DNA of 64,000 bases from Phyto melanocephala (Eukaryota > Arthropoda > Insecta > Diptera > Rhinophoridae), in contig OW799234.1 in the NCBI GenBank assembly GCA_941918925.1, positions 108,001,884-108,065,883 of the forward strand. Reading direction: 5' to 3'. Both the position numbers and the translations under genes were made by a program. The notes under the pieces were generated by a model. It did not search any database and was not told the DNA's origin. It saw nothing but the letters and a program-made list of their open reading frames with translations. This document shows, in pieces, positions 6,622 to 54,743 of the stretch (the first letter of the stretch is position 1; every line of letters starts with the position of its first letter).

Positions 6622-9600
6622 CTAGTCCAAGAACCCAGTCCCCTCAATGTAACGCCTTATGGATCTCCAGTTCGAGTTCCCCAGGTATTCCAAGTTCGGC
6701 ATAGTATCCACTGTAAAATTTTCGCGCCTAATATGCCCAAACGCAGGACAATGACAGAGGTAGTGTACCAGAGTCTCATCCTCTTCCTCGCGAGCTCTAC
6801 ATGTTGTCTCCTCAGATAATCTCATGCGAGCTAGATGAGTTCTCAACTCCGTATGACCTGTAATTACACCGGTTAATTTCCTAAGTGTAGGTCTACTTAG
6901 TCTCAGAATCTCCTTTGATTTTCCAAGATTTGGGTCACCACAGAGTGTTCTTGTCACCTTACCGACATCAGTGCTTCGCCATTTTCTGACATGTTCCTCC
7001 ATTGCCCAACGTTTAAGTTCATCCTTAAATCGTTTAAGGGGTTTGGCGTTCTCCAAAGTTATAGTACTCAGAAGAGCTCCCATTTTGGATAATTTGTCGG
7101 CTTTCTCGTTTCCGATCAGCCCGTGATGGCTTGGTATCCATATTATCTCCAGATGTACACAATTTTCGTATGAGTTTATCTCACTCTTGCATTGCAAAAC
7201 GTTCCGGGATTCAACTTTCTCAATGTCTTAATCACTGATTGGCTATCCGTAAAGATACGAATCGGAGTTTCGCTATTCGTTTCCTCTATCCATTTAATTC
7301 CTTCCGTAATCGCCATGATCTCAGCCTGAAAAATAGTGTTGTGATCTGGTAGACGGAAGTATTTGCTTCTATTTGGGCTTATGTCGTATAAGCCCATTCC
7401 AGTTTGGTCACCAATCTTTGAACCGTCTGTGTAAAGACCGATTCCGTGGGTGTTTCCCATCCTGATTATCTCATCCCATTCTCCCTCTTCCGGTATAATG
7501 GTGATGCAGTTAATATTCTCATATCTCATCGGGATTTTATCACATGTTAATTCCGTAATATTTCCCATCGGTAAGATATCCTTTATTCTTTGGTATCTGG
7601 TCTTATGTTCTCTTATAAGCCACTCATATATTGCCATTTATCTTGTGGCAGCTAAGGCCGCTTCATATTTTACCTATATCTTAATAGGCCAAATGGATAA
7701 TATATTCTCAATGGCCATTGTCGATGTGGTCCTCATGGCGCCGCAAATACTAATGCAGCACTGTCTCTGAATCTTTTGAAGAGGTTTTATATTCAACTTC
7801 TTCTCTAAGGATGTCCACCACACTAACGAAGCGTATGTAATTGTAGGCCGCAGTACACTCGTATACAGCCAATGTGTCATCCTTGGGCTTAGGCCCCATT
7901 TTGAGCCAATCACTCTTCTGCAGAGGGCCCATATTCTTTGAGCTTTCTCCACTTTACATTCAATGTGGTCCTTCCAGGATAGTCTCCAATTAAGTACTAT
8001 TCCTAGGTATTTGACCTTCTTATCAATCTTAATTGTCTTATTCCGAAAGATGGGATAGCTATGCACCGGTATCTTCCTCTTTCTCGTAAACAAACAGATT
8101 TCAGTCTTTTCCGGGTTGACATTGAGCCCTCGCTCCTTCGCCCAGTTATAGGATATATTCAAAGCCTCCATTGCTCTCATACATAAAGAATTTGGATTCG
8201 TCCCCCTGATCAGTATCGCAACATCATCTGCGTAACAGATAGGCTTGAATCCCTCGTTCGATAGAATCCTCAGTAGACTATGTATGGTAGTTACCCATAA
8301 TAATGGAGATAAAATACCTCCCTGCGGGGTTCCTCGACATACTTTGTCCCTTCTTCTTACTCCATTTGCCTCACAATTTATCCATCTGTTCCTTAACATA
8401 TTGCTAATCCATGCAATTAAGACATGGCTTAACCCTAAGTTTTCCAAGGAATCGATAAGATTCGAGGTCATTACGTTATTGAAAGCTCCTTCTATGTCTA
8501 TGAATACGCCCATGGTATACACACCCAGGTCGAAGGATCTTTCTATATGATAAACAACTTCCTGAAGAGCAGTCTCAGTAGATCTGCCCTTGATATAGGC
8601 ATGTTGTCCAAATTTCATTGAATCACCTGGTAATCGTCTTCTGATTATTCCACCGACGATACGCTCCATGGTTTTCAATAAGAATGATGTTAAGCTTATG
8701 GGTCTATAAGCTTTAGGATTTGCGTAATTTTCCTTCCCTGGTTTAGGTATGAAAACGACTCTCGCCTCCCTCCATTCCACAGGGGTATACGCATATTTCA
8801 GGCAAGTAGTAAAAATATTCGCCAGCCTTATATCAATTAGGTCAATGCTTCTTTGTAGGAGAGCCGGAAAAATACCGTCCGGCCCTGGTGCCTTATATGG
8901 CAAGAAGCTATTTATCGCCTCTCTGACCATCTTTGCGGTTATAATTATGTCCGTCGTGGCACTACCGTCATGGGGGTGTGGAATTTCTCCATCATCCGCC
9001 ATTTCCGTTTGGAAGTGTGCCTCTATCAGTATTCCTAGCGTCTCCTCCATCGTCTCCGACCTTTTCCCGTTCGAGTCAACGAGGGTTTCTGGTTGGGTGT
9101 GGGTTTTCGATAGGAATTTCTTAATTCTAAAAACGTCATTCACGCTGTCCACCTGATTGCAAAAAAGCCTCCAGGATCTGCGTTTGGCGATTCTTATTGC
9201 TTTGTTGTATATTCTGAGCTTCTCACTGTAATCGTCCCAGTATACTGATTGTTTCTTTCGATAGGCTCTGTTAAATAGCCTTCGGGTTTCTTTTCTGAGA
9301 TTAATCAGTTCACCTGTCATCCAGGGCTTTTCCTTTGGGGTTCGCCTTTGTCGGAGTGGACAATGCTCCTCAAAAGTTTCCTTAAAATCGGCAGTCAGTC
9401 TTCCCACCATCGAATCTAACGTGTCCAGATTTTCATCCGGTTCTGGATAATTTTCGAGTTTATGTTGAAGACTTAACCTAAAATTTGGCCAGTCCGTTCT
9501 GGCCTTATTCCTAAAAGTCACCGGTTCCGGTGGCGGATGAGTTAAGGTCATAAAAATATAGCGATAGTCCGAATAAGAGTGCATATCAGATACGTGACAA

Positions 9601-10193
9601 CCGCAAATTTCATCAATTAAATTTTCTGATCTTATAGTCACATCAATTACCTCTTCCCTAATTCTGTTAATAAATGTAGGTTTATTACCTGAGTTAAGGG
9701 TAAATAAGTTATTAGCATTTAGGAATTCCCATAGGGAGGCTCCTCTCTTGTTACAGTTCGTGCTGTCCCAAGAGAGGTGATGCGAGTTCGCATCACAACC
9801 TTTTAAAATATTCCTACCTGTTCTCCTTGCCGATGTTATTATACTTCTTAAATCCGACGTTGGTGGTTGTGTAGGAGCATCAGAAGGTTGGTACACCGAT
9901 GCCAGCATTAAATTGCGTGAGCCATGTATTAAGGTAGTGGCGTCCGCTGTAGATAAATCTGGGGAAAAAAGAAAATTTAATCCCTTATGAGAAAGTATAC
10001 ATGTTCTGGGTCGAGACCCAGTTTTAGCATAAAATAATTGGTAATCACACTCATTCAATCCAGTGACTCTGTCTTTAACAGTCCAGGGTTCCTGAATGAG
10101 AACTATGTGTATCTTACCTTTGGTTATATTTTCAATCAAAGCTTGTGTAGCCGTTCTGCTCCGATGGAGATTGATCTGCCAGAGCAGTATCAT
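6622..10193 (-). pseudogene. LINE ORF2: endonuclease, reverse transcriptase, RNase H (broken)
   Basis: The first 839 codons (10193 to 7674) are open. The endonuclease occupies about residues 1-215 (IQEPW, DANSHHLSW), but its final motif is SDYRYI where SDH is usual. The reverse transcriptase follows (YKAPGPDGI, RPISLTSF, FIDIEGAFNNV, GTPQGGILSPLLW and the catalytic CYADD). Two in-frame stops, at 7674-7676 and 7638-7640, separate it from RNase H, which keeps all four acidic positions (LYTDGSK, FQAEI, FTDSQS, NEKADKLS). A frameshift near 7195-7200 falls inside RNase H. The C-terminus has a zinc-knuckle segment (YLCHCPAFGHIR) and ends at 6622. Few lesions across about 3.6 kb suggest a fairly recent copy. 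Confidence 0.88.
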
Positions 10194-10251
10194 TGTTGTT
10201 CGGCTAAAAGAGATTCTTCTTGGGATTGAGTTATCTTCAACTCCTCCCTCT

Positions 10252-10690
10252 TCATTGGCACGGGGTGGCCTTCATCTTCTTTAGCCTCCTTTGCTTCGTC
10301 GTCGGGATCTTTCTTCTCCGTTGGATTATGTGTCCAACCAATGGGGTCTTACCAACTTTGAAGAAAATAGTTGTACTCGCGAAGTACACCTTCCCTTTTT
10401 GCTCCTCGAGGTAAGACATGGAGGGTTTATCCACCCCTGCAACTAACAGGGTGCCATCGTCAGTTTCCTCACGATGGAAAACCTCCCATTTGTCTACTTC
10501 CAGACCTCTATTTTCCTTGCCAATGATTTTAAGCATGGCTTTGCTATCAAGTTTGCTGCCCCAACCTTTAACGAAAAATGAAACCTTGGTTAGGGATGGG
10601 ATATCGGCCTTTTTCACCATGGCAAGTTTGCCACCCTCCCATGGGGCTGGTATGCCTCCCACTAGGTCTTTCATAATATATAACTTTCAT
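10252..10690 (-). pseudogene. LINE ORF1 C-terminal fragment (DUF4780-like)
   Basis: About 140 residues are open. The segment runs KENRGLEVDKWEVFHREE, then DGTLLVAGVDKPSM, YLEEQKGKVYFASTTIFF, and a basic tail RRRKIPTTKQRRLKKMK. The pattern of a tryptophan-containing strand, a 'tLlV.gvD..s' strand and a closing hydrophobic strand recalls the DUF4780 region of ORF1 proteins of fly LINEs. ORF1 is the RNA-binding protein in such elements. It lies 58 bp upstream of ORF2 on the same strand. The methionine at 10674 is probably internal, since the frame stays open to the element's truncation point. Confidence 0.6.
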
Positions 10691-29100: not shown

Positions 29101-31157
29101 GCAGTGATTTTCTGAAGGATGAAGGATGTCTGGAAGATTTTATGCGGATGGTGGTGTTTTACACTCCAAATACGTCAATTATACTTTTCGAAATGCCTAT
29201 GAAGCCAAAAGTTGTTCTTATTACTGCAGAAAATATTTGCAATATTAACAAAGTAATATGAGGATTGACTTTTATATTTCGTAATTAGAGACAACAAATT
29301 ATTGAAAATGGCTTTACATCTTTTCAAAATAATTTCTATGAAGATCAATACACTTTTTCACATGTGTGAACATTTGTTCGAAGCATTTTTTTCATTTCGA
29401 TTCGGGGTTTGCTCGTCTTAGATGACCCATACAGTCGAAACCTATTAAAATTTGGTCTCATACACGTATATCCACGATTCGTCACTGCGATCTTTTTTTT
29501 TAGTATTTCTTGCGACCAGTCGACACGAGCCTTATTTTAAGCGATTGTCAGATTATGTGAGATTTAACTTTTTTACAAATCATGTTAGAGTGGACCAAAA
29601 GTCACCATGGAGTTTAACAATTTATGTTAAATTTGTTTATTATTATCCATTTTAACAAAAAATAAAACACACATTTTTAAGTCCATGGTGTCTTTTGGCT
29701 AACATTGTATTTCCACAATAAATTTTCAAACATTACTTCAACTTTAGTCTATTTATTACGAATTGCTTACTACTGATCTAAGAATATTATCAAGAGTAGA
29801 TTGGCTGTCACAAAAAGTATCGAATTTGAAAAAAAGATACCTGCCTGCTATATATGAAGATGCAGATTTTTACGCCTCATATCCACGTAGCAATTTTCAT
29901 TGCTAAGCATTAGCAGAAACGTCGGCAGAATAACGGCACTTTATTGCTAAAGTATGTTTATTTTCATTGGGTGGAGAACACGACACAAGTATTTGATTTA
30001 TAAAATTTAATATATTTGTTTACACTTTTATGGGATTTTGTTTGCAATACTTCACTCTAAATTATAATCAGGTAAAATTATTTTAATTTTCCTTTGTTTC
30101 TGCAAAAAAAAAGATGAAATTCAAAGAAAATTGAATGACAGCTTATTGCGGCAATAATTGCTCAAGCAATTAGCAGAGCAATGATTGCGCAATAAATTGC
30201 TAACAAATACTTAACTACATTATTTTAAATAAAAAAAATTTTATGCTAAAGGTTAAAAATTTTACTGAAAATAATTATGTTTGGAATTACAAATCAATTA
30301 CTGAGGATAACATCACTTCGAAACCATATCCTCTAGCAGTCTCTAACATCGCAAAAAAAAAGAAAACAAAAATGTTGACACAAAAATCGTAACATTGTCG
30401 ACTAAATATTTTAAGGTTATGGTATTGTCAGTTCTCCAACCTAACGGTATGATATTTTACATCTAACAGTGGTGCAATCTTACTTGTACAATCAATAAAA
30501 TTTTATTTAATTTTTTTTTTAATTTTTTTCATTCTAAAACATTTATGCTACATAAAACTAAAAAACTTGTACTATTTAGTACACAACGAACACTAAAAAA
30601 ATCAATAATATGCCTTTTATTAACCTTTTTTAATCAATTGAGTAATGATCGTAAAAATATTTTCGTTTTTTTTTCTAATAATAATAAAAGAAACATCATT
30701 GAATTTTAAGAAATCAAAACAAATACCAACCAATACATGTGGAGACGCACACAGTCATACAACGCGTGTGGGTTGCATTACCAATGAAGTATGGTACAGC
30801 ATTTTAATAGCGACATTTTGGTTTTACCAAAGTTATTGTTGTTGCTGATGGGAATGCAGACATTTGAGGCCAAACCATCAAGACAACATCAACTTTACGC
30901 CATACAAACACACACACATTTCCATAGAGCTCGCGGTATGGATCAATTCAAATGTGTTGGATCAACAAAGGGCACACTGTGTGTGTTTTTGTTTTTTTGT
31001 TAAAATAACAACAACAATAAACTGATCCAACCGTATGATTTTGGTATCTGAACAATCACCAATAAGGTACTGAATGCTAAAATAATACAACAACGACAAA
31101 AATAACCAAAAAAATACAGCAGCATAATGTATGTTGATAGCTATATATGTATGTATG
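26144..31157. other. AT-rich noncoding DNA
   Basis: About 5 kb without a supported gene or clear transposon. Purine-rich and GA-rich patches occur near 26990-27015. At 29893-30204 ATTGC/GCAAT-type repeats in opposite orientation may mark an old MITE, but no target duplication was found. ORFs at 26823-27074 and 29452-29655 have no motif. Confidence 0.55.
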
Positions 31158-31159
31158 TA

Positions 31160-31389
31160 CAGTGGCTCACAGCTTATTTTATGCAGTGCACTTTTTTATT
31201 TTTGAAGCTCTGTAAAAAAAAAACTAACAGGAACTGAAAACAGAAGTTCATGTCATTAAAAAGGGAAACCTTATTATTTAACAAAAAAATTTCATTTATT
31301 TCAAAAATGTACATTTTAATATATTACAACTAAAAAAAACAGAAAACACTCCTTTTTTCATCTCACAGCTTATTGTATGCAGGCACGTA
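31160..31389. repeat. Tc1 left inverted repeat with two DR motifs
   Basis: CACAGCTTATTTTATGCAG in the outer position and CACAGCTTATTGTATGCAG in the inner one, about 198 bp apart; presumed transposase binding sites. Confidence 0.85.
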
Positions 31390-31430
31390 TGGTTTTCAGA
31401 AAATCAAAATAAAACTGGAAATTAACCAAT

Positions 31431-32450
31431 TTAATATTTTGTGTGATAGCCTCTGTTATCTATTACAGATTTAAGACGATTTGGCATAGAATCGACCAGT
31501 TTTTGTGTAACATCTGGCGAAATATTTGCCCACTCCGTCAAAAGAGCTTGTTTCAAATAGTTTTTGCTTGAAATTTTGTGTTTTCTTATGTTATTTTCTA
31601 ATATCGACCATAAATTCTGTATAACATTAAGGTCTGGCGACTGTGCTGGCGGTGTCATCAAATGTGGGCAGTTATATATCAGCCAAGTTTGCACAATACC
31701 CGATTTGTGCTTTGGATCGTTATCCTGGTAAAATCGAAAATCGAATTTTATACCCAGGTTCTCAGCGCTCACCAACAAGTTGTCTTTAAGTATCTGGAGG
31801 TACTTAAATTTATCCATGGTTGTTTCAATAAAAGTTAATTTTCCAGTACCAGCAGCCGACATACAGGCCCAAACCATGTCACTGCCACCACCATGCTTTA
31901 CTGTTGCTTTAAGGTTTTCTTTGTTGAGTTCTGTATTTGGTTTCCGCCATACATACGACATGCCATCGGAACCAAAGAGGTTAAACTTAGATTCATCTGC
32001 AAATATGACCGAATTCCAAAATGCAGATTCTCTTGAGACGTGCTTCTTGGGACAATTTAACCTCCATAGCCTATTTTTCGGGTTAATAAACGGTTTCTTG
32101 CGTGCAACTCGGCCATTAAAATCATGTTGGCGCAGGACGCGACGAACAGTTTCCACGCAGCATTGTTTGCCCAGTTCAGCTTTAACTTCAAACGTCAATT
32201 TTGGAGCTGAGAGCTTTGAGTTCGCCCTTATTTTTCGCAAAATATGTCGCTCGTCATGTTCCGTAAAAAATTTATTTGGTGGTTTTCTGCCTTTGTTATA
32301 AACCCGATTTTCACGGATGAAGCGCTTAATGATTTTTTGAACTGTGGAAGCATTAATATTAACCATTTCTGCTATTTTTCGCTGTGAGTGGCCATTTTTA
32401 AAATGGTTTAAAACCAATTTTCGCTGCTCTATCGTTGTTCGCGGACTCAT
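31431..32450 (-). CDS. Tc1-like transposase, third catalytic Glu replaced by Gln
   Basis: A 339-residue protein of normal Tc1 length, uninterrupted, starting at an ATG. The bipartite helix-turn-helix domain covers about residues 1-110 (HSQRKIAEMVNINASTVQKI; then KLSAPKLTFEV). A GRKP-like AT-hook linker is near 54-57. The RNase H-fold domain has catalytic D152 (FADESKF) and D243 (YQDNDPKHKS). The third residue, 34 positions further on, should be the E of 'SPDLNPIENLW' but is Q278 (SPDLNVIQNLW; codon CAG at 31617-31619). The glycine-rich box is also altered (GGGSDMVWACMS). A carboxamide there is expected to abolish metal-dependent cleavage, so the protein may bind DNA but not cut it. Subfamily (Bari-like or other) is not settled. 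Confidence 0.95.
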   Translation of the reverse strand: MSPRTTIEQRKLVLNHFKNGHSQRKIAEMVNINASTVQKIIKRFIRENRVYNKGRKPPNKFFTEHDERHILRKIRANSKLSAPKLTFEVKAELGKQCCVETVRRVLRQHDFNGRVARKKPFINPKNRLWRLNCPKKHVSRESAFWNSVIFADESKFNLFGSDGMSYVWRKPNTELNKENLKATVKHGGGSDMVWACMSAAGTGKLTFIETTMDKFKYLQILKDNLLVSAENLGIKFDFRFYQDNDPKHKSGIVQTWLIYNCPHLMTPPAQSPDLNVIQNLWSILENNIRKHKISSKNYLKQALLTEWANISPDVTQKLVDSMPNRLKSVIDNRGYHTKY

Positions 32451-32579
32451 CTCAATTTTTCTTAATTGACACTTTATATAATCAAATCAGACTAACAATT
32501 CAACGCAAAACATTACTAGATTTAAAAAAAAGAATGAAAAAAAAACAAAAAAGTTGCATTCAAGTACCGTTACAGTAGA

Positions 32580-32808
32580 AAATAACTGCATAAAACAAGC
32601 TGTGAGATAAAATTAAGGACATTTTTTGTTTTTTTACTTTTAAATGGTTAAAACGTAAACTTTTGCAGAACATGATATTTTTTTGTTAAATAATAGCGTT
32701 TCGTCTTTAAAATGATTCCAAGTTCTTTTTAAAGTTCCTTTTAGTTTTGTTTATACAGAGCTTTAAAAATAAAAAAATGCACTGCATAAAATAAGCTGTG
32801 AGCCACTG
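32580..32808. repeat. Tc1 right inverted repeat with two DR motifs
   Basis: Mirror of the left arm: inner CTGCATAAAACAAGCTGTGA and outer CTGCATAAAATAAGCTGTGA. The material between them also aligns with the left arm (for example TATTATTTAACAAAAAAAT). Confidence 0.85.
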
Positions 32809-32810
32809 TA

Positions 32811-34547
32811 TATTAAACTGATTATCGATTAAGTTTAGTACTTTGTGTTATGTACCCTACTAATGTTATTGTATATTGAGAGGAACATCAAGAAAAAAGG
32901 CATCGTAATGGAAAGCACATTTAATTTTACTTTTAATACACAATTCTTTTTTTTTTTATCAATTTTACAAGTTTAAAAAAATGTTGAATTGATTTTCCTA
33001 TTTAAAGAATTATGTACGAAATTATCTATAAGCTTTATTATAAATTTTCCTACAATATTGAAAGTATATTTTTTACAAGATTTTAATTTTTAGTTTTAAA
33101 ACAATTTTAATTTTTGTATTTAATTGTTAATAAAAAGAAAAATTAAAAATATATTTTTATAAATATAATCATCATTTGAATCATTAAAAATATGAATTTT
33201 GAAAATATGTTTCTATTTCATTTCCATAAATATCTTATAAAGAAATTAACTTTTTTTATTGAGTTATCAATTGACTTATGTATGAAGAACTTATTTATTA
33301 AAAGAAATATTCAAAGTATTTCTATAAAGTTTCAGGCAGAGGCGAAGGTCAATTAGAACCATTTAAGAAAATTTATTTTTAAAATATATTCCTAATTAAG
33401 TTTGATTGGAAAAAATAATTTCAGAAACGCATTTGTGTTTAGCTTGGTACCAAAGTTTTTTTTTCCCCCCCAAAATACGTACAATCCTTTTCGATCTAAA
33501 ACCGAGACTGATACATCTTAGAGCTTGCATTTCTTACAGATGTTCAATTTATTAAATATTTAAAATAAATTTAAGAACAGCTGCACTTATTTCGGCATTT
33601 TTTTTTAAATGCTTGACATAACATAATTTAGATATGTTCTTATTTAATAATTGCCTACGCCCACTTTTTTAATTTATTTAAAATAAATAATTATACATAT
33701 ATTTAACAAAATTAATTATATTTTACTCTACATTAGCACATGCAAGTGCAAGTGAAAAAAGTCAATACATTAAAAATTTTTTATTAACGCAACCACACTT
33801 TTGCTACCTGCGACTTAGCTTGCAATGAAATTTTAAAGCAAGTAAAATATACACACTTACGGCAATTAAAGTGACAAGACGAAAAACAGTGCTGTCGAAT
33901 ATTGAGTTTTTTGTTAACTCACTTGTATTTGATACAATTGTGGTAAACAATTTAGCTAATTTTTTGCATATATAGATGAAGAATATTAAGAAAAAGCAAA
34001 GATATTCATTTATAATGTAAGTCTTAACAATAAATATCAATTTTTAATAAAAAAAAAATATATATATTAAAAATTATTGCCAGGTAACGTTCAATAGTGA
34101 CTACTTGGCAACACTTAGTTAACAATTTAAGTAGTACCATTTATTTTGAAGGTTTGTTGTTGACGACATTTTAAAAATAAACTTACACAGTGCTGTGCAG
34201 CCACATTTTTTTTCTGATTTCTCCTGATTTTCGTTAGTAATATGAATACACTACTTGCAAGTAATTACTTGCTAGTGGCTATATGTAAAGCTTAAAAATG
34301 GTTTTAACGGAATTTTTTTTCTTAAAATTTTAGGTGAATGTAACACCCACTTCCATAACAAACCAACAGTTTTTGCCGTATATCTTAAGTATTGTTATAC
34401 CGAAAATCTCTTAAATTTTCGTAGGATATTATAATAACTTGCCTAGTTGAGTTAAAAATGAGCTGGAGAAAAAATATATAAGTTATATAGAAATTTATTA
34501 TATCTGTTATCTTAAAACTTTGTGTGTTTTCTTTCTATTTCAACAAT
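32811..34547. other. AT-rich noncoding DNA
   Basis: No gene or element recognised. Confidence 0.6.
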
Positions 34548-41236: not shown

Positions 41237-41241
41237 CGTTG

Positions 41242-41280
41242 CACATTGGGGCCAAATAATTGAAAAGTGGCGATTAATTC
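41242..41280. repeat. Transib left terminal inverted repeat
   Basis: CACATTGGGGCCAAATAATT then GAAAAGTGGCGATTAATTC. Only about five positions near the start and centre differ from the right end. Confidence 0.9.
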
Positions 41281-41512
41281 AAAATATGAACTTTAAAATT
41301 CATGATCGTGTTTGGTACCGGGTGAAAGTGGATAAAATTCTGCATCACTAATTGCAAAAATTATACTTTTAAGTTGTTTGCTTTAGTTGAAGTGAGCACT
41401 TAAAGTTGAATAATTGTTATTTTTTTGTTGTGCATATTGAAAAAAAGTGAAAATTTTGATATTTCAATTGATAATTTTTTCTATTAATACTTCTAAAAGT
41501 TAAATTTTTATA

Positions 41513-41531
41513 ATGGAACCGTCAACTTCAG
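41513..41531 (+). pseudogene. Candidate exon 1 of Transib transposase
   Basis: ATG opens M-E-P-S-T-S-G and meets a donor-like GTAGTT at 41532. An acceptor (ATTAATTTTAG, ending 42442) precedes GA-ACA-TGT-CCC, which continues in frame as G-T-C-P-K-T-I-Y-I-P-R-H-E-L into the long exon. The predicted intron is 911 bp. It is an inference from frame and splice motifs, with no transcript evidence. Confidence 0.45.
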
Positions 41532-41902
41532 GTAGTTTACTATATAGTACATGTTTTTTTGTTTAAATAAATGTTTTACAAATATTAAATGTTAATAAAA
41601 TAAAATTAGCCCAAAAATGGGCTATTTTTGATTTATATATGGAGTTTCAACAACTTTGTTCGTGAGCTTGCGTAAAATCGTCTATATAGTGTTATAATAT
41701 CAGATCTCAACTAATAAACCCCAAAATATTTTTTTGCGATTTTTTGCGATTTTTGAGTTATGCTTGTTTTTGTGAAATAACTTAAGATGCTAAAAATCCA
41801 CAAATATAAAAAAAAAAACAAAACATCAAGTTGTTTTTACTTTGTTTTGTCATTATTTTCGTTATAGTAGTTGTTATTGTAGCTAAAAAATGTGTTGTTA
41901 AT

Positions 41903-42123
41903 TAGGGATGGGGGCGTGAGTAACTTTAATTCACGCATGCTCACGTGATTGCGTATGTTTGGTTTATTTACTATGAATAAAACTAATTAAATTATTTTAC
42001 ATGTGTTTATGATATTTCAATGAATTTTACTTAAACATTTGTTAATTTTAAATTATTAGAAAATTGTATATGGCACAAGTGCACTATTTTGAAAAATTGA
42101 AGGAGGTCACGCTCCCATCCCTA
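41903..42123. mobile_element. MITE-like element inside the Transib intron
   Basis: The left terminus TAGGGATGGGGGCGTGA (41903-41919) and the right terminus at 42107-42123 are inverted copies with one mismatch in 17. The 221-bp span has no ORF. Flanking 8-mers do not match, so no target duplication is recorded and the superfamily is open. Confidence 0.6.
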
Positions 42124-42442
42124 TCTATTATTGTCATTTATTTGAGTCCTACATAATAACTGTTGGTCATATACATGCATCATACGAGTAAAGTTTTAAT
42201 TTTGTTTTAAGCTGGTGATATCAATCTACTAATATAATGATAATACATTTTTAAGAATTTCTATCCATCCGTAGGGTATTATTGATTCGGTACTGACACG
42301 TTTATTTATTGTTTTATCTGTCAATGTTTTGTGATGTGATGTTACATATTTAAAGTGTTGTGAAAGTGTAAATTATTCGGTACAGGGTTAAAGGAATTAC
42401 TTTTTGCAAATTTTAAACGAATAGAAATCTTATTAATTTTAG

Positions 42443-44254
42443 GAACATGTCCCAAAACAATTTACATTCCTCGTCATGAGTTGCATAATTTTATGAGGAG
42501 TGCAGAACCTAAATCACTTCAGGATAAATTTAAACTTTTGAGATGGGAAGTAATAAAACGTGTCGACCCTTCGGATATGGTAGATTTTATGACAAGGTTT
42601 CATAATTTTTGCTCTTGCTATAAGATTCGGTGGCAAAAATGTCATAGAAAGAATGAAATTTTTGTAAAAAATAATAAGAATTGGCTGGATGCCTCAATCT
42701 CATTTAGTCCACCACTAGAACCACAACAAAAAAGAGGTCGCAATGATCTCTCATTTGAAGAGTGCAAAGAAAAAACAAAAGTTAAGAAATGTAAAGACAT
42801 AAGAGATCAAATTTCTTTGCCTGTTTTGGCTTACGCCACACAAATGAGCTTGAGAGCTGCTGGAAAAAAAGATGAGTCGAAAATTGTTAAGGAAATAATA
42901 TCATCTCCAACAAAAGCCAAAAAATACCGAAAAAGTATAGAACAGGGACCATCACAGCAGTTAACTCCGGATGAAGCTCTGTCCGTTTTGGTAGAAGCGA
43001 AGCTAAGTCGCCACCAACATAATGTTATTAGAAAGGTTGCACCTGAGAAATTTCCATCATATAAATTGGTCCAAAGAGCTAAGAAAAAATGTTACCCAAA
43101 GGGAGAACAAATGAAAATTTCTGAAACATCAGCGCAAGTTAGCCTACAAGGAATATTGGATCATACCACTGAACGCCTTTTGTCGGTTAAAAATGCAGAT
43201 TTAAATTCGTTAGACAACGAAGAAATCGAAAAAATTACTTTTTACACTAAGTGGGGCTTTGACGGAAGTTCAGGGCATAGTTCTTACAAACAAGCCTTTC
43301 ATGACAGTAATGCATCTGATTCTTCTGTATTTATTGTCAATTGGAGACAGAAAAAAATGCTCTTATCGATACAGTGATATCAGTTGGAGAAAGAAAGATA
43401 AAAGTGAACCACAAACTAATTCTCGTTATGATTGACGGTAAAGTGTGTAACGCGATTACAGACACAAAGTCCACAAAAAAGTGCTACATATGTGGCGCTA
43501 CCAGCAAGGAGTTCAACAATATTGAACAAATGATTTCTAGACTTTTTTAAAAAAAAAAAAAAAAAAATTATTCACTTGGCATATAAACTTCCAATTCAAA
43601 AATGGCAGGCAAGAAGTGACGAAGAAAAAAAAATTATTGCTGAAACTAAAAGTCGTATTCAACGCGAATTTAAAAAAGAGAACGGGATTGATCATTGATC
43701 AACCAAAACCTGGTTTTGGTAACTCTAATGACGGGAATACTGCACGACGTTTTTTTAAGAATGCAGAAGTATCTGCTGAAATTACTAATATTGATTTAGA
43801 GTTGATCAAAAATATGCACACAATATTAATTGTAGTTTCTAGTGGTATTGAGGTCAACATTGAAAAATTTACAAACTTCGCTAATAACACTGCCAGGCTA
43901 TTTGTGAAAAAATATCCATGGTACTATATGCCTCCTACTCTTCACAAATATTTTATTCATGGGCCTGAAATTATATCATTATCGCCATTGCCAATTGGCC
44001 AGCTAACCGAAGAGTCTCAGGAAGCCAGAAATAAAGATTTTAAAAGTTATAGGGAGAATTTTGCCCGTAAATGCAGTCGAGAAAAAACGATGGAAGATAT
44101 CTTTAATAGATTTCTCTTAAGTTCAGATCCGTTTATAACAAGCATGAACAATAGTTCTAAAAAGAAAAAAGAGCTAATGCCAAAATTTGCATTGGAGTTG
44201 CTTGTACTTCCCAGCAATCAAAATAGCAATGATGAAGATGGAGATGAAGATTAA
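42443..44254 (+). pseudogene. Transib transposase (RAG1-like core), frameshifted
   Basis: An N-terminal region of about 310 residues is open (frame of 42481-43377), with KWGFDGSSGHSSYKQ carrying the first catalytic Asp (codon 43261-43263). A deletion and frameshift near 43340 leads to LILVMIDGKVCNAITD (second Asp, 43434-43436) and the zinc-binding KCYICGATSKEFNN. The sequence breaks at an A-run (43549-43567), where the expected 'WIRFFE' helix is missing. It resumes as IHLAYKLPIQKWQARSDEEK, shifts again near 43670, and continues LIIDQPKPGFGNSNDGNTAR, PWYYMPPTLHKYFIHG and LTEESQEARNKDF, which carries the conserved acidic site. The tail is acidic (NDEDGDED). The motifs match RAG1's D-D-E core and Transib spacing. 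It is disabled by at least three lesions. Confidence 0.9.
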
Positions 44255-44808
44255 GATTATTGTAACGAATTAATTTATGATTATGAAATTGAATGTGAAG
44301 TAAATACTAACATTGAAGGTAATAATGATTATAATAAAAAATTGTTGTTTTCAAAAAAAAAAATAGAATAACCGAATTTAATTAAATTTTTTTTAAAAAG
44401 TGTGTTTATGGTTATTTATCAATAAAAAAACAATTAGATTTTCAAATGTTTCATTTTTGAGCAAAATTTTAAAATTTCGAGAAAAAAGGTACGATTATAA
44501 TTTAAAAATTTTCTAATAGAAATACATATAAAATATTTATTCCTTATTATTTTTAAAAATATTACTTATTTTTCTTAAAGTAAATTTAGTATGCTTTAAT
44601 TTGCAATTTAATTGAATAATTTATAGCGCACCGTTCCAAAGTTACAGCAAAAAATGTGAAAAAAGAGGATTTTTTACAGAACACTTAATGGCCCATAAAG
44701 GGTTAAAAAATGTGTTTTTTCACTCTGTTTTTTTAAATGTTGGTTTTTTATGTATTTATAAATATCCATTAATAAAAAATATTTTTTTTTTTAAATTACG
44801 ACTACTAT

Positions 44809-44847
44809 GAATTAATCGCCACTTTTCATGCATTTGGCCCCACTGTG
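44809..44847. repeat. Transib right terminal inverted repeat
   Basis: Reverse-complemented it starts CACAGTGGGGCCAAATGCAT. The terminal heptamer CACAGTG is identical to the consensus heptamer of V(D)J recombination signals. Confidence 0.9.
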
Positions 44848-44852
44848 CGTTG

Positions 44853-48857: not shown

Positions 48858-49676
48858 AAATTGTGTGACATATGCATAAACAAAATGTATCTATTTTTTA
48901 ATTGTTGTGTATATAAATACCAGAGATCTGCAACGAATACTCATGAAGTAAGTCAACTTGAATTATGATTCATTATTTCGTTGATTTATATGCATTCATA
49001 CTTATTGAAAAGTCTTCACTATTTATACTCACTTTTAAATTTAAGGTACTTAAAGTACTCATATTCAGCCGCACGTATGACTCGGTTGATTGCTATTGTC
49101 GTTCACGCAAAATAAAAAGACGATCAATAGCAAGTATGCCTCGCATACTCATTATGAAGTTGTGTGTTTTAACTAGGCTTGCCAGATTACAATTTGACAT
49201 TCACCATAGTAATTCTGAATTGTTTAAAAAACTATATAATTTAAATTTAACAAAATAATACAAAAACAACAAGCAAAAATAAAGTGCTTGCTTTGATGTC
49301 TGTTTAAGAGATTTAGATTTTGTTTTTGCGTATTGTCTTTTAAATTTAAGTGAGCACTTAAAAACGCAGTTTTTTAATGTGCTTAAAAAAATTTAAACAT
49401 CAAAATAAAAAACAATATAACTGTTGTTTACGTCTTAATATAGAAGCCAACCAAAACATAGCCTAAAGCCCATAATCAGTTGAATTTATTTAAAAATTAA
49501 ATAGTGATACTTGCAAAACTTTTATATTACACATTGTAAAATTGCAAATCTTCTGGAGGCAAAAAAATATCTTGCACTCTCCGATCTGGCAACATTGTTT
49601 ATTCTTCATACAAATGCGAGCTGAGTTTTTGTTGTTGAGTCAACTTGCATCATTCCATGAAGATAAGTAGTTTCTA

Positions 49677-49930
49677 AACAAGTAACAGTGCTCTATTCGG
49701 CCGTACCGAATCTTATATACCCTTCACAACGTGTAGTCATGCAATAACAATTGTTTGTATCACCATTCATCTCATATAAAATACGTACATATGCATGTAT
49801 ATACTGGTTAGAATAAATGTGGCATCGAATCCCAGCTGAGCCAAAAAAAAAACTATTTTATTTTATTTAATATATTATTTATATTTTATTATTTTTTTTA
49901 TATTTTTTTAAATTTTTTTTATATTAAACT
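49677..49930 (+). mobile_element. DINE-1-like element, 5' portion
   Basis: AACAAGTAACAGTGCTCTAT then TCGGCCGTACCGAATC, 'cttcacaacgtgtagtcatgcaataacaattg', 'atactggttagaataaatgtgg', CATCGAATCCCAGCTGAGCC and an AT array. The AGTCGGG-side 3' module is lacking; the AT array grades into ordinary DNA. Confidence 0.65.
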
Positions 49931-51020
49931 CTGATCACTGATCAGACCACAGCCGAATTCAGCACACTACTTTCATTCTTAGTCTTACACTTAATTTTGT
50001 ATACACCTCAGATTTGACTGGTCTGGATACCATTTCAAAAGTCACTTTCTTGTTATGGACAATTTCTTTCAGTGTAACCTGTTCTTGGTGGTCAAGATTG
50101 GTGGGAATATTATTTAATTTCATATCATTTTGTTGTGTCGTGTATCTTTATGTGTTTGTCTGTTTCATTTTTAGTTTTCTGGGTCATACAGACTCATAAG
50201 TTCATTTAGTATTGTTTAACAAACCCAGCATTATTACATTTATTTTGTTGGTTTTTATTGTTGAAAAATACTCATATGAATGTACCTATCTACTAACTGC
50301 CAGTATGCTGCCTGTGTATAACATCTACTTTATTGTGGTTGTTAAAAAGAGGTACTTGTTATTTTATACTTATGTCCAAGTTTAATTGCCACCTATGTTG
50401 TATCGTTTGGTATCTAAACTTGTCTTAATTTGTGTTTTTTTGTTGTTGTCTTCTTACTACTTAAATGTTTGTGTGTTTCTGATTGTCGCTGTTGCAAAAG
50501 ACAGCTTTAAAAAATCTTGTTTATTTTATGGGAATACTTAAATGTTAATAATTTTTTATAGCATCTCTAACATATGAGTTTTTCTCAGTTATTGCTAGAT
50601 TTTTTTGTGAATTTTCTAAAACATATTTAAACCTGGGAGGTCAGTAAACAGGAAAAACGTATGTTTGAGTTTCGTTTATGTTTGATCTCCTTATAAATTA
50701 AGGGTATAATAAACTCTTTAAGCACGTTTATTGTTAATATGTATCATTTTGTCTTTTTTTCGTTGAAAATTTAATAACTTCATTGAAAATTAAATTATGT
50801 CAAACTACCTTCATTTCGGGTGCAATCAAAAGCGCAAAGAAGCCAACAGTATAGTTTATATAATTCATAATATTGCGCATAATTTAACTAAGATTTAATG
50901 GCTGGAATAATTGGGAAGAACTTAAAAAAAACTTTTTTAATAGTGTATTACATGAAATTTTAAATTTAGGCTTAGCTACGATATGGTATTTAAACCTGTA
51001 TACAAGAAGTGAAGAGAATT
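49931..51020. other. AT-rich noncoding DNA
   Basis: No gene recognised. The 61-codon ORF at 50014-50199 has no motif. Confidence 0.55.
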
Positions 51021-51021
51021 T

Positions 51022-51064
51022 TCAGATTCGGCATGGCTGAATATAGCGCTTTTCTTTGTTTTAA
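51022..51064 (-). mobile_element. DINE-1-like 5' module, minus strand
   Basis: Minus strand: AAACAAAGAAAAGCGCTATA then TTCAGCCATGCCGAATCTGA. It abuts the Helitron 3' end at 51070. Confidence 0.5.
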
Positions 51065-51069
51065 ATAGA

Positions 51070-51600
51070 CTAGCCAAGCCCGGCGCGCGTTGCTACGCCC
51101 CTCAATGAATAAAAAAGCATTCTGAATTTTAATTGAAAATATTAAAAAAAATATTTTATTGATTTTTATTGTAATGCAAGTGGGTATACAATTTTTTTGG
51201 TTTTTCCATTTGCTGTAAAAAGAACAAATTTTTTGGTGTTCCCACACGGAGCATGTGACGTACAGCTGGTCCTGTTAAAAGCATTGATTTTCCAAATTTA
51301 ATTCCGCAACACGCAGAGATTGTTCTTATGCTATGTTGACGGTAATAGCGAAGGCAACGCGAACTGGAAACTGTAGTCGCTTGAAGTTGAAAGGCAAATC
51401 GGTGGGAGCCATTGGAATGCGTGGAAATAGCTAAAAATAATAACTTATTTTTTATAGGCGTGGACTGCCTACTTTTCCAATCACGAAACTGTATAGTCAT
51501 GACAGCTCAATATGTGTGCAAAGTTTCAGAAAAATCAGTCATGTTCAAGTCGCTAAAAATTATAACTATTTTTTTATGGGCGTAGCCCCGCCACCCGTAA
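51070..51600 (-). mobile_element. Helitron remnant with 3' terminus
   Basis: The minus strand ends GTTGCTACGC-type GC-rich hairpin sequence (plus strand: ACTAGCCAAGCCCGGC then GCGCGTTGCTACGCC), giving terminal CTAG next to T. About 100 bp inside it lies the end of a Helitron helicase. The upper part (51430-51600) has 'tgtgtgcaaagtttcagaaaaatc', a segment typical of the same repeat type. The 5' part is gone, and the element borders a truncated DINE-1-like copy. Confidence 0.7.
51165..51425 (-). pseudogene. Helitron Rep/Helicase C-terminus (Pif1-like), decayed
   Basis: One minus-strand frame reads LPFNFKRLQFPVRVAFAITV, then after a stop EQSLRVAELNLENQCF, another stop, and DQLYVTCSV. A shifted frame gives RVGTPKNLF. 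This order is the C-terminal end of Helitron Pif1-family helicases: the 'FP.r.aFA.TinK.QGQ.L' box, then 'G..YVa.SRV..p..l'. The KAQG residues are lost. No Rep domain is present. Confidence 0.75.
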
Positions 51601-51967
51601 ACACTCCCTGTCAGAAACATCGGTAAATAAACAACTTAGATATGAGCAGAAACCCACGACCACCTCACAAAAACAGCATTACAACAACAACATACATACA
51701 TACAAACGTGTATACTGGCTAGAGTAAACATGGTATCGAATCCCAACTGAGGCAAACAATTTTTTTTTTATTTTTTTATATATTTTTTTTTAATTTTGTT
51801 TAATTTATTTTTTTTAGTTGATATATTATTAATATTTTTATTATTTTTTTTTAATTTTTGTTTGTTTTATATTTGTTATTTATATTTTAATTATTTTTTT
51901 AAAATTTTTTTTTTAAATTTTTTTTTTATTTGTTTTTTTTTGTATTTTTTATTTTTTATTTTATATA

Positions 51968-52890
51968 AAGGGTGTTTTTTTAAGCCCGATAGAACTTGAA
52001 ATTGTAAAAAATAACACAAAAAATTAAATTGTAATCAAAATTTTTTTTTTATTCGAAAGATCAATACGTGACATTAACATTTGAAAATGATTTCGGGCAT
52101 ATGGGCACCGCGGCTGTTCTTGACGAAGCGCATTCTGGACGTCCAATTTTGGGCCACTTTTTCGAGCACTGCTGGCCGTATGTCACGAATAACACGAACA
52201 ATGCTGGCCTCCAAGGCGTCAATTGTTGCTGGTTTATCAGCATAAACCAGTGACTTCACGTAGCCCCACAGGAAATAATCGAGAGGTGTCAAATCGCACG
52301 ACCTTGGAGGCCAATTGACAGGTCCATTTCTCGAAATCAACTTATCGCCAAATTTTGATTTCAATAAGTCGATGGTTGCGTTCGCCGTATGGCACGTAGC
52401 GCCATCCTGTTGAAACCACATCTCCTCCGGATCAATGTCATCCATATTTTCAAACAAAAAATCATTGATCATGGTGCGGTAACGATCTCCATTGACCGTA
52501 ACGCGAGCTCCGGCCTCATTTTTGAAGAAATAAGGTCCGATGATGCCACCAGCGTGAAAACCGCACCAAACGGTGCATTTTTCTGGATGTAATGGAGTCT
52601 GTAGGGTCTCTTGTGGATAGGTCTCGCTCCATATGCGGCAATTTTGCTTACTAACAAACCCGTTAAGCCAAAAATGCGCCTCATCGCTGAACACAATTTT
52701 GCGATAAAACAACGGACGTCCAGAATGCGCTTCGTCAAGTACAGCCGCGGTGCCCATATGCCCGAAATCATTTTCAAATGTTAATGTCACGTATTGATCT
52801 TTCGAATAAAAAAAAAATTTTGATTACAATTTAATTTTTTGTGTTATTTTTTACAATTTCAAGTTCTATCGGGCTTAAAAAAACACCCTT
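51968..52890 (-). mobile_element. Rosa mariner rebuilt as a 177-bp fold-back
   Basis: 923 bp, with TA at 51966-51967 and 52891-52892. The arms 51968-52144 and 52714-52890 are inverted copies, each 177 bp, with one difference noted (gctgttctt against gctgtactt). Ends are AAGGGTGTTTTTTTAAGCCC. The arms contain the 3' end of the transposase gene, so the true 5' end of the mariner has been replaced by an inverted copy of its 3' end. At the inner border of each arm lies the palindrome GGACGTCC. Confidence 0.93.
52074..52790 (-). pseudogene. Mariner (DD41D) transposase, catalytic part with foreign N-terminus
   Basis: A 238-codon open frame. Residues 1-26 are the antisense reading of the element's own 3' end, not transposase. 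Genuine transposase starts at LFYRKIVFSDEAHF with D36, then D129 (MWFQQDGATCHTA) and D171 (CDLTPLDYFLWGY); 41 residues lie between the last two, the DD41D spacing described for the rosa group of mariners. VTVNGDRYRTM and NWTSRMRF...EIIFKC complete the C-terminus. All three catalytic aspartates are intact and the frame is unbroken, but the paired helix-turn-helix DNA-binding domain is missing, so autonomous transposition is not expected. Confidence 0.88.
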
Positions 52891-53201
52891 TATTATTTAT
52901 ATTTTTATAAATATTTTTTTTTAATATTTTTTTTAAATTTATTTTTATTTTTTTTTTGTTTCATATTTATTATTTATATTTTATTACTTTTTTATTAATT
53001 TTTTTTATTTATTTTTTAACATACATACGTAAATTTATAATTTTACATTGGGATGTTTTTATATATGTATGTTTTTTATATGTATGTATGTACGTATTTT
53101 ATATGGGATAAATGGTGATACAAACAATTGTTATTGCATGACTACACGTTGTGAAGGGTATATAAGATTCGACACGGCCGAATATAGCACTTTTACTTGT
53201 T

Positions 53202-54743
53202 TAAAACAAAATTGCCTTCATATAGAAAACGTATATGTGTTTAGGTTTATAAGAAATATTTTATCAGCATTCAAGTTAAATATGTAACAGAGGGAGTGAT
53301 ATAAATGTCATTTCCTCTCTTCCTTTTTTAACTACATCATCCGAAATGCATTTCATCTATCTTAAAGATAAAAAAAGAAAAATCATTTAAACAGAAAATG
53401 TGAGCCAGCTAATGCTCTATATAAATAAAATAAATAAATATAAATGAATTAAGGCGATTTCGTGCGTTACGCCAAAAATTTTTCAAAAATGTTTCCAGTC
53501 TGCAAAATTGATGTTGCTTTTATCAATCTTTTGTTATTGGTGTTGTTTTATTTTTTTTTTACACATTTTTACTTTTTACTTACTGTTGGTTGCTACTTTT
53601 ACATTTCATTTAAGGAAGTTTTTATTGTAATTTTTTGGTTTAACATTTTTGGTTTTATTTTAACTTCCGGCATAATGGATGGTTAATATGCTGAATTTAG
53701 TTTCTTTATAATTTATCTAAAATCTATTTTAAAATTGTCTTGACTTTTTTTTATTTTTTTTTTTGTTTTGTTTCCTCTTGCGTTTGTTCGAGTAATTTTT
53801 GTAAATTTGTTATCTCAAATAATTGACCTCAAATTGAAATTGTTGATTTTTGTTACTCGTTTTCGTTTGTTTATTTGTTTGTTTATATTTGGGCGACTTT
53901 GTCACCTAATTACTAAAAGGTAGTGAGGAGATATGGTAACATTACTCATCAATAGAAATTGGTTAGAAGGTCATTAACTCACATACACATACGGATATTA
54001 GGGTTGTTATTACGGAATGCTTGTTTACAATGTTAGAGAGTTAGAGATAACAAATGCTTTAATTTAAATATGTTCATAAAAGGTTCTGCTTAGAAAAAAT
54101 TTTAAATTATCTCGAGTTTAGTATTTCACTGCTTTGTTGTTTCTCTTTTTTAGAGAATCTACTAAACGACTTCCGAAACAGAATAAACGAAAAAAAAACA
54201 ATAAAATAAAATAACCAATTAATAAAGACTCTTAACATTATGTTTAAGGAGTGCTTACGAACAAAGTGTATACATTAATTTAAGATCATTTACGTTAAGA
54301 TATTTATTGAAATATTTGAGTTTTCATTAATTTCATAATTTGATATCACCTTTAAAGGTATTGGCTGTTTTATTTTCTGTTCATCTGCTTGTTAGTACTT
54401 TGTTATATATTTAGAACCGAACTCCCAATACGTAGATGTCTAAAATATTCTAAAATGACCTTATCATTATGCGCTATTGATTAGAGCAAGACCATATTGG
54501 CACTATAGCTTTAGTAAATATGTGTATGATTGTTCTATACGGCATTATGTTAAGAAGTCATCTTAAATTTGAAATTTTCTTTGAATCCACTGTATTCTAT
54601 TAAATCTCTTACTTTGTTAACAATATTGAAAAAAAAAATTAAACTAGCCATCTTACAGTTATGGCTATGATGGATTTTTTTCTGATGTACTGTTCAGTTA
54701 CTTTTGAATATCTTTTATATTCGATATCCAATTATGGGGGTCT

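Follow-up and report, generated by a model that had tools for sequence, protein, structure and literature searches.

A Transib family of the fly Phyto melanocephala whose two ends differ by one base of the heptamer

Does a single-base difference between the heptamers at the two ends of a Transib transposon serve to tell the ends apart, or is it simply tolerated? This question is raised by a 3606-bp element at positions 41242-44847 of a 64,000-nucleotide stretch of DNA from the fly Phyto melanocephala (hereafter the window; C2:108001884-108065883 of the 739.75-Mb, nine-contig assembly). Transib is an accepted relative of RAG1, and a preliminary description of the element, made from its letters alone, had read the left end as CACATTG and the right end as CACAGTG, the latter being identical to the heptamer of the V(D)J recombination signal sequence (RSS). 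Both readings are confirmed here. The copy in the window is dead. We consider it probable that it belongs to an ordinary Transib family with recent mobility in a calyptrate fly, and that the heptamer difference was inherited and is most likely tolerated.

The element is flanked on both sides by CGTTG, and this GC-rich 5-bp duplication and the inverted ends lie exactly where the preliminary description had placed them. The terminal 39 bp of the two ends agree at 35 positions, the mismatches in the window copy falling at positions 5, 17, 18 and 19, and the inverted arms extend over 46 nt (41241-41286 and 44803-44848) with 87% complementarity. The left end starts CACATTGGGGCCAAAT and the right end CACAGTGGGGCCAAAT; as in other Transib elements, both open with CAC and are heptamer-like. 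The inner block GAAAAGTGGCGATTAATTC, with up to three mismatches allowed, has a chance expectation of 0.05 occurrences in the window and was found twice, both times exactly and once per end, so that chance does not explain the inverted ends. The sequence CACANTGGGGCCAAAT also occurs exactly twice, once at each end, and six times with up to three mismatches (0.91 expected). An Rfam scan of the window returned nothing at gathering scores.

The frames of the window copy match the HzTransib transposase with E values of 3.7e-19 and 5.7e-44. The read-through window protein matches it at 2.9e-81, and HzTransib is its sole solved relative at E<=0.01; no RAG1 structure was found at that threshold, and solved RAG1 chains match one window piece weakly (E 0.04-0.07). 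The protein in a large collection that is closest to the window transposase is P0001, which is uninterrupted and 651 aa long. Matches to the Pfam RAG1 family PF12940 are under the cut-off both for the window frames (4.4e-4) and for P0001 (23.9 bits, against a cut-off of 25). The best solved relative of P0001 is again HzTransib (E 2.2e-115 over residues 153-635, 483 residues), and a structure model of P0001, with a mean predicted local distance difference test (pLDDT) of 82.7, matches the fold of HzTransib 6pqx first (E 9.9e-40; template modeling score 0.91 by target length), RAG1 next (5e-20) and BbRAGL after that (1.7e-16). Among 40 aligned proteins (P0001 and 39 relatives chosen among the best 120 of 461 matches), residues D257, D474, E571, C377, C380, H545 and H550 are invariant in 40/40, and their positions suggest that they form the catalytic triad and the zinc site. 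We take the triad of P0001 to correspond to RAG1 D600, D708 and E962; for the Glu and the His region, this is backed by the alignment obtained with the window piece that matches solved RAG1 chains. The catalytic D, D and E and the CxxC...HxxxxH zinc site are also found in the window copy, split over frames. Thus the motifs DGSSGHSSYKQ, MIDGKVCN, CYICGA and EESQEARNK do follow one another in Transib order, as had been noticed, but no single frame holds all four. By its sequence, the element is a member of the Transib superfamily; the protein comparison, with HzTransib first and RAG1 after it, does not place the core outside Transib, which would have refuted the preliminary description.

The CACAGTG end and the resemblance of the fold to RAG1 would also suit a RAGL (RAG1L-RAG2L) transposon, closer to RAG than an ordinary Transib is. 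However, the element has the single gene of a Transib and shows no convergent RAG2-like gene: its surroundings and the element itself contain 10 frames of 60 aa or more, none of which is conspicuous as a further gene of transposon type, and Pfam, which was applied to the three transposase frames but not to the seven short ones, recognized no kelch or PHD domain in them. With HzTransib far ahead of RAG1 in the comparisons above, we regard the RAGL reading as improbable in the extreme.

The window copy has close siblings. Eleven places in the assembly (L009-L019) are all those more than 90% alike along most of the element, among 40 scored of 688 candidates, and with the window copy they make up family I, of at least 12 copies. 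The left heptamer is CACATTG in 12/12 copies. The right heptamer is CACAGTG in all nine copies in which the right end could be read (the window copy, L009, L010, L011, L012, L014, L015, L016 and L017); no right end was readable in L013, L018 and L019. CACAGTG is therefore kept at one end only (9/9 right, 0/12 left), which is what the preliminary description had proposed to look for in intact copies. All nine copies with both ends carry exact 5-bp duplications, as expected of Transib and as that description required of siblings; their G+C content is 62%, compared with 30% in the window, and they read CRNYG in six of nine cases, with a final G in all nine. Over the first 45 positions of these nine copies, the left and right ends show fixed differences at positions 5, 18, 41 and 43. 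It had been stated that the ends differ at a heptamer position and in a few bases further inward; the former holds for position 5, but at the family level only 5 and 18 are fixed within the first 40 positions, since A17 is private to the window copy and T19 recurs in L012 alone. Positions 10-12 are GCC in 12/12 left ends and 8/9 right ends.

Pairwise divergence among all 12 copies is 0.34-1.80%. It is 0.85-1.80% (mean 1.28%) among the nine copies other than L017, L018 and L019, 0.54% between L017 and L015, and 0.34% between L018 and L019. In one sibling, L009 (C6:10363092-10366887), joining the two exons gives an uninterrupted frame of 672 aa, and the sole stop in its match to P0001 is the end of its own frame, within the tail of P0001. 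In each of the other 11 copies (the window copy and 10 siblings), the frame either changes or is cut short by a premature stop. Family I appears to be a young burst that was recently mobile. Its copies show some further features of arrangement: L010, L011, L012 and L018 carry differing nested insertions (~0.7-4.3 kb), located within the transposase gene or downstream of it, L018 and L019 form a large inverted pair (C6:11024986-11035056), and four of the 12 copies lie on contig C6, which is 3.6% of the assembly.

One copy with an uninterrupted reading frame could also be looked for if the sequence were a domesticated RAG1-like or Transib-derived gene and no longer a mobile element. That is very improbable, given at least 12 copies spread over several contigs, exact duplications in every copy with both ends readable, damaged frames in all copies except one, and a window copy that is itself broken.

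The transposase gene of the family is predicted to have two exons (Table 1). The splice-site regions were recognized in 12/12 copies with up to three mismatches allowed; in L010, the start codon and the last base of exon 1 are changed. In the window copy, the transposase is divided into four segments, with the frame changing between them, so that this is not an autonomous copy. Relative to L009, 135 and 70 positions are missing from it; a third gap, of 6 bp, also occurs in L014-L017. Because all 11 siblings retain both of the deleted stretches, this decay is specific to the window copy, which is dead. The element had been called a preserved fly representative; the word 'preserved' has to be given up because of these frame changes and private deletions, and the fly origin stands. 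Within the Transib intron lies a 221-bp inverted-repeat unit (window 41903-42123). The part of the element that spans this unit (element positions 1-2102) is matched in one piece by 9/11 siblings and in two overlapping pieces by L018 and L019, and the repeat therefore seems to be part of the Transib family.

More diverged relatives were fetched from 29 loci, representing 26 distinct places (three were fetched twice). At least one end was obtained from 14 of these and none from 12 (L021/L048, L022, L030, L031, L032, L034, L037, L038, L040, L042, L044 and L045). Some ends were placed by extending the DNA alignment to the edge of the element, and those of degenerate copies may be 1 base off. In family II (L027, L036, L039 and L043), the three left ends read are CACATTG, CACATTG and CACATTA, and the right end is CACAGTG in 3/3. 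In family III, eight left ends were read: CACAGAG in L025, L026, L046 and L047, CCCAGAG in L023, CACAAAG in L035, CATACAG in L033 and CACAGTG in L024; its eight right ends comprise five CACAGTG and three CACAGTA. All 11 right ends of families II and III thus start with CACAGT. Exact duplications flank L025, L027, L043 and L047, and L024 and L026 show a 4/5 match. At positions 10-12, family II has TT followed by C, G or A on the left and TTC in 3/3 right ends, and family III has GTG in 6/8 left and 7/8 right ends. For a tree of protein pieces, 27 loci were projected and four (L026, L032, L033 and L041, with <200 residues) were dropped, leaving 23 loci, four of them of family I, plus 10 proteins. 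In this tree, families I and III are grouped (1.000) and are then joined by family II (0.995), apart from the proteins of other species.

Still more distant Transibs exist in the same genome. With P0001 as query, the assembly yielded at least 76 matches from 68 scored candidates out of 4285. Among these, nine cover >580 residues at 39-43% identity without an internal stop; the open frames that contain them are 645-718 aa long, and some of the nine fall into sets of near-identical members. The ends were read for two distant families (IV and V). L052, which is 55% identical and has a single TGA within its match, shows CACACTG at both ends, the duplication CGCCG and ends that are 34/40 alike; the locus C2:69404681-69407599 (41% identity, 671-aa open frame) has CACAGTG at both ends, the duplication CGGCG and ends that are 37/40 alike. 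Since the heptamers are equal in these two families, asymmetry is no constant trait of the Transibs of this genome, nor is a heptamer identical to the RSS. The match to CACAGTG alone is no special mark, and the earlier emphasis on its V(D)J-type spelling was too strong: a distant family carries it at both ends, and positions 4-6 of the heptamer can be substituted in ProtoRAG according to PMC8289069. Beyond this assembly, a search for relatives in viral and prokaryote genome contigs gave 11 and 29 pattern-matching stretches, respectively, of which 0 were confirmed.

Comparison with known systems bears on how the ends should be read. Target duplications of 5 bp are known for HzTransib itself. 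This transposon of Helicoverpa zea (PDB 6pqn, 6pqx and 6pqy) has the same single-transposase core and fold, with 38-39% identity to the P0001 core protein in fold alignments. Its ends are described as symmetric in PMC8289069, in contrast to those of family I with their difference at heptamer position 5. Duplications of 5 bp are given as general for Transib in PMC7204232. The Drosophila melanogaster Transibs (hopper and transib1-4) likewise have fly hosts and 5-bp duplications, which were found for hopper in 532/533 cases, with inverted repeats of 33-45 bp (PMC3276498, PMC10299278); the GC-rich palindromic target of hopper in these sources, CCANTGG, resembles the CRNYG of family I but is a different motif. 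Asymmetric Transib ends have also been reported, some with 12/23 spacing (PMC8355894; PMC9435367): Transib5 of D. melanogaster and Transib2 and N1-N3 of Anopheles gambiae have non-identical ends, with some heptamers equal to the RSS (PMC8355894). According to that source, those ends differ by a 12/23-bp spacer, whereas the spacing is equal in family I and no nonamer stands out; the same elements may also have heptamer differences, and the present comparison covers their spacing. In jawed vertebrates, CACAGTG is the consensus RSS heptamer (PMC8289069), and it is identical to the right heptamer here. Jawed-vertebrate RAG1 is the next fold match after HzTransib, with a sequence similarity under the Pfam cut-off. 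In contrast to the V(D)J system, no RAG2 was seen and family I has neither a nonamer nor 12/23 spacing. A single-base heptamer polarity was not encountered in the open literature text searched, which excludes figures and Repbase; it may well be in print.

An asymmetric Transib of the 12/23 type was considered for family I and rejected. When the nonamer was scored at all spacings within the outer 60 bases of L009, the best match was 5/9 at both ends, a score reached by almost any shuffled sequence (1995 and 1991 out of 2000); the spacing is identical at the two ends.

How might such an element move with unequal heptamers? The heptamer, and probably also the inner repeat block GAAAAGTGGCGATTAATTC, would be the sites at which a transposase made from the two-exon gene binds the two ends. 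By analogy with the biochemistry of HzTransib and RAG, it would pair the ends and nick them at the CAC border; hairpins formed on the flanks would then free the element, and its insertion with a 5-bp stagger would give rise to GC-rich 5-bp duplications. The nine exact duplications of family I are what nicking, hairpin formation and a 5-bp stagger would predict. The difference at position 5 (T on the left, G on the right) would have been inherited from the common ancestor of family I as a tolerated substitution, with no pairing rule of the 12/23 type. Tolerance is supported by other Transibs of the genome that have C or G at position 5 of both ends, and in the substitution tests with ProtoRAG described in PMC8289069, heptamer positions 4-6 were without significant effect.

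Several observations weigh against this account. The tolerance was measured in ProtoRAG, another transposase, and would extend to family I by analogy. The difference is not random noise, being fixed in 12 copies of family I and present in family II. Over families I-III, right ends start with CACAGT in 20/20 cases (CACAGTG in 17/20), whereas left ends depart from it in each family and read CACAGTG in 1/23. Between families, moreover, both ends have changed jointly at positions 10-12, while the heptamers have not converged. The counts of right and left ends also speak for a functional polarity kept by selection, in which the right end, canonical and strong, and a left end of lesser strength would allow ordered nicking or would protect lone or like-paired ends from cutting. 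With the branching ((I,III),II), the left end departs from the canonical form in each family, through T5 in I and II but chiefly through A6 in III (CACAGAG or CCCAGAG in 5/8 left ends), so that it has changed without turning canonical. Left-sided departure in all three related families makes such a polarity possible. However, the events that are independent number two or three, and being so few, they could have fallen on the left by luck. Families IV and V of the same genome have equal heptamers, changes at positions 4-6 are tolerated by ProtoRAG (PMC8289069), the right end also shows some variation (CACAGTA in 3/8 of family III), and L024 of family III has CACAGTG at both ends, although its duplication matches at only 4/5 positions. 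We therefore hold selected polarity to be unlikely, and slightly more doubtful still is a wider version of it, in which this clade of fly Transibs would keep a deliberate polarity, the right end being of RSS type and the left one non-canonical, while the two co-evolve at positions 10-12 and differ at heptamer position 5 or 6. An inherited and tolerated difference is the explanation that we prefer.

The positions of the features of the window copy are collected in Table 1.

Table 1. Features of the Transib copy, in window coordinates
Feature	Position	Strand	Remarks
Left target site duplication CGTTG	41237..41241	.	identical to 44848-44852
Left terminal inverted repeat, 39 bp	41242..41280	+	35/39 identical to right end
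Left heptamer CACATTG	41242-41248	+	same in 12/12 family copies
Putative coding exon 1, 19 nt (MEPSTS + first base of G)	41513..41531	+	in frame into exon 2 across GT...AG intron; splicing predicted from the sequence
Putative GT...AG intron, 911 bp	41532..42442	+	common to siblings
Transposase piece 1	42443..43343	+	tblastn with P0001 residues 1-283, 96%
Predicted first catalytic Asp codon (WGFDGSSG), piece 1	43261-43263	+	D257, invariant in 40/40 aligned proteins
Junction of private 135-bp deletion, 2-bp shared edge	43342..43343	.	0 to 6 of 135 positions missing per sibling (n=11)
Transposase piece 2, different frame, first half of zinc site	43347..43538	+	MIDGKVCN 43428-43451, CYICGA 43482-43499
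19-base A run at second private deletion (70 sibling positions)	43549..43567	+	all 70 present in 11/11 siblings
Transposase piece 3, frame of piece 1 again	43570..43683	+	P0001 residues 420-460, 90%
Transposase piece 4, third frame	43682..44254	+	SNDGNTARRFF 43724-43756, LHKYFIH 43940-43960, EESQEARNK 44009-44035
Predicted second Asp codon, piece 4	43730-43732	+	within SNDGNTARRFF
Predicted zinc His, piece 4 (LHKYFIH)	43940-43960	+	
Predicted catalytic Glu codon, piece 4	44021-44023	+	within EESQEARNK
Right terminal inverted repeat, 39 bp	44809..44847	-	35/39 identical to left end
Right heptamer CACAGTG	44847-44841	-	same in 9/9 copies with readable right end
Right target site duplication CGTTG	44848..44852	.	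identical to 41237-41241

Other repeats are present in the window. A Tc1/mariner-type element (31155-32813) has inverted ends of 109 nt at 85%, followed by 90 nt at 74%, and an open transposase frame of 351 aa (31431-32486, minus strand). A retroelement without long terminal repeats (6622-10686, minus strand) encodes reverse transcriptase, endonuclease and RNase H in several frames. In the region 49657-53221, a pair of outer inverted arms, 135 nt in length (90%), surrounds an inner 180-nt inverted repeat that is 99% complementary; the 249-aa frame inside is mariner-like by eye and has no Pfam match. Elsewhere in the assembly, contig C9 (16,280 bp; L051) appears to be the mitochondrial genome, with COX1, COX2, ATP6, COX3 and ND2-like frames (recognized by eye, except ND2). 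Its ND2 has best identities of 82-83%, including with Calliphoridae and Anthomyiidae, both Calyptratae, among the best 120 of 7761 matches; calyptrate flies are thus the nearest among the matches listed.

These Transibs are a natural test set for whether the heptamer conveys the identity of an end to a RAG-like enzyme: a young family with an uninterrupted frame, near-identical ends and a single-base heptamer difference stands beside families of the same genome with equal heptamers. If the difference is merely tolerated, a match to CACAGTG would be weak evidence for a special link to the V(D)J signal. If the polarity were real, end identity would be encoded in the heptamer without a spacer rule, which would be a simpler, precursor-like way of telling the two ends apart.

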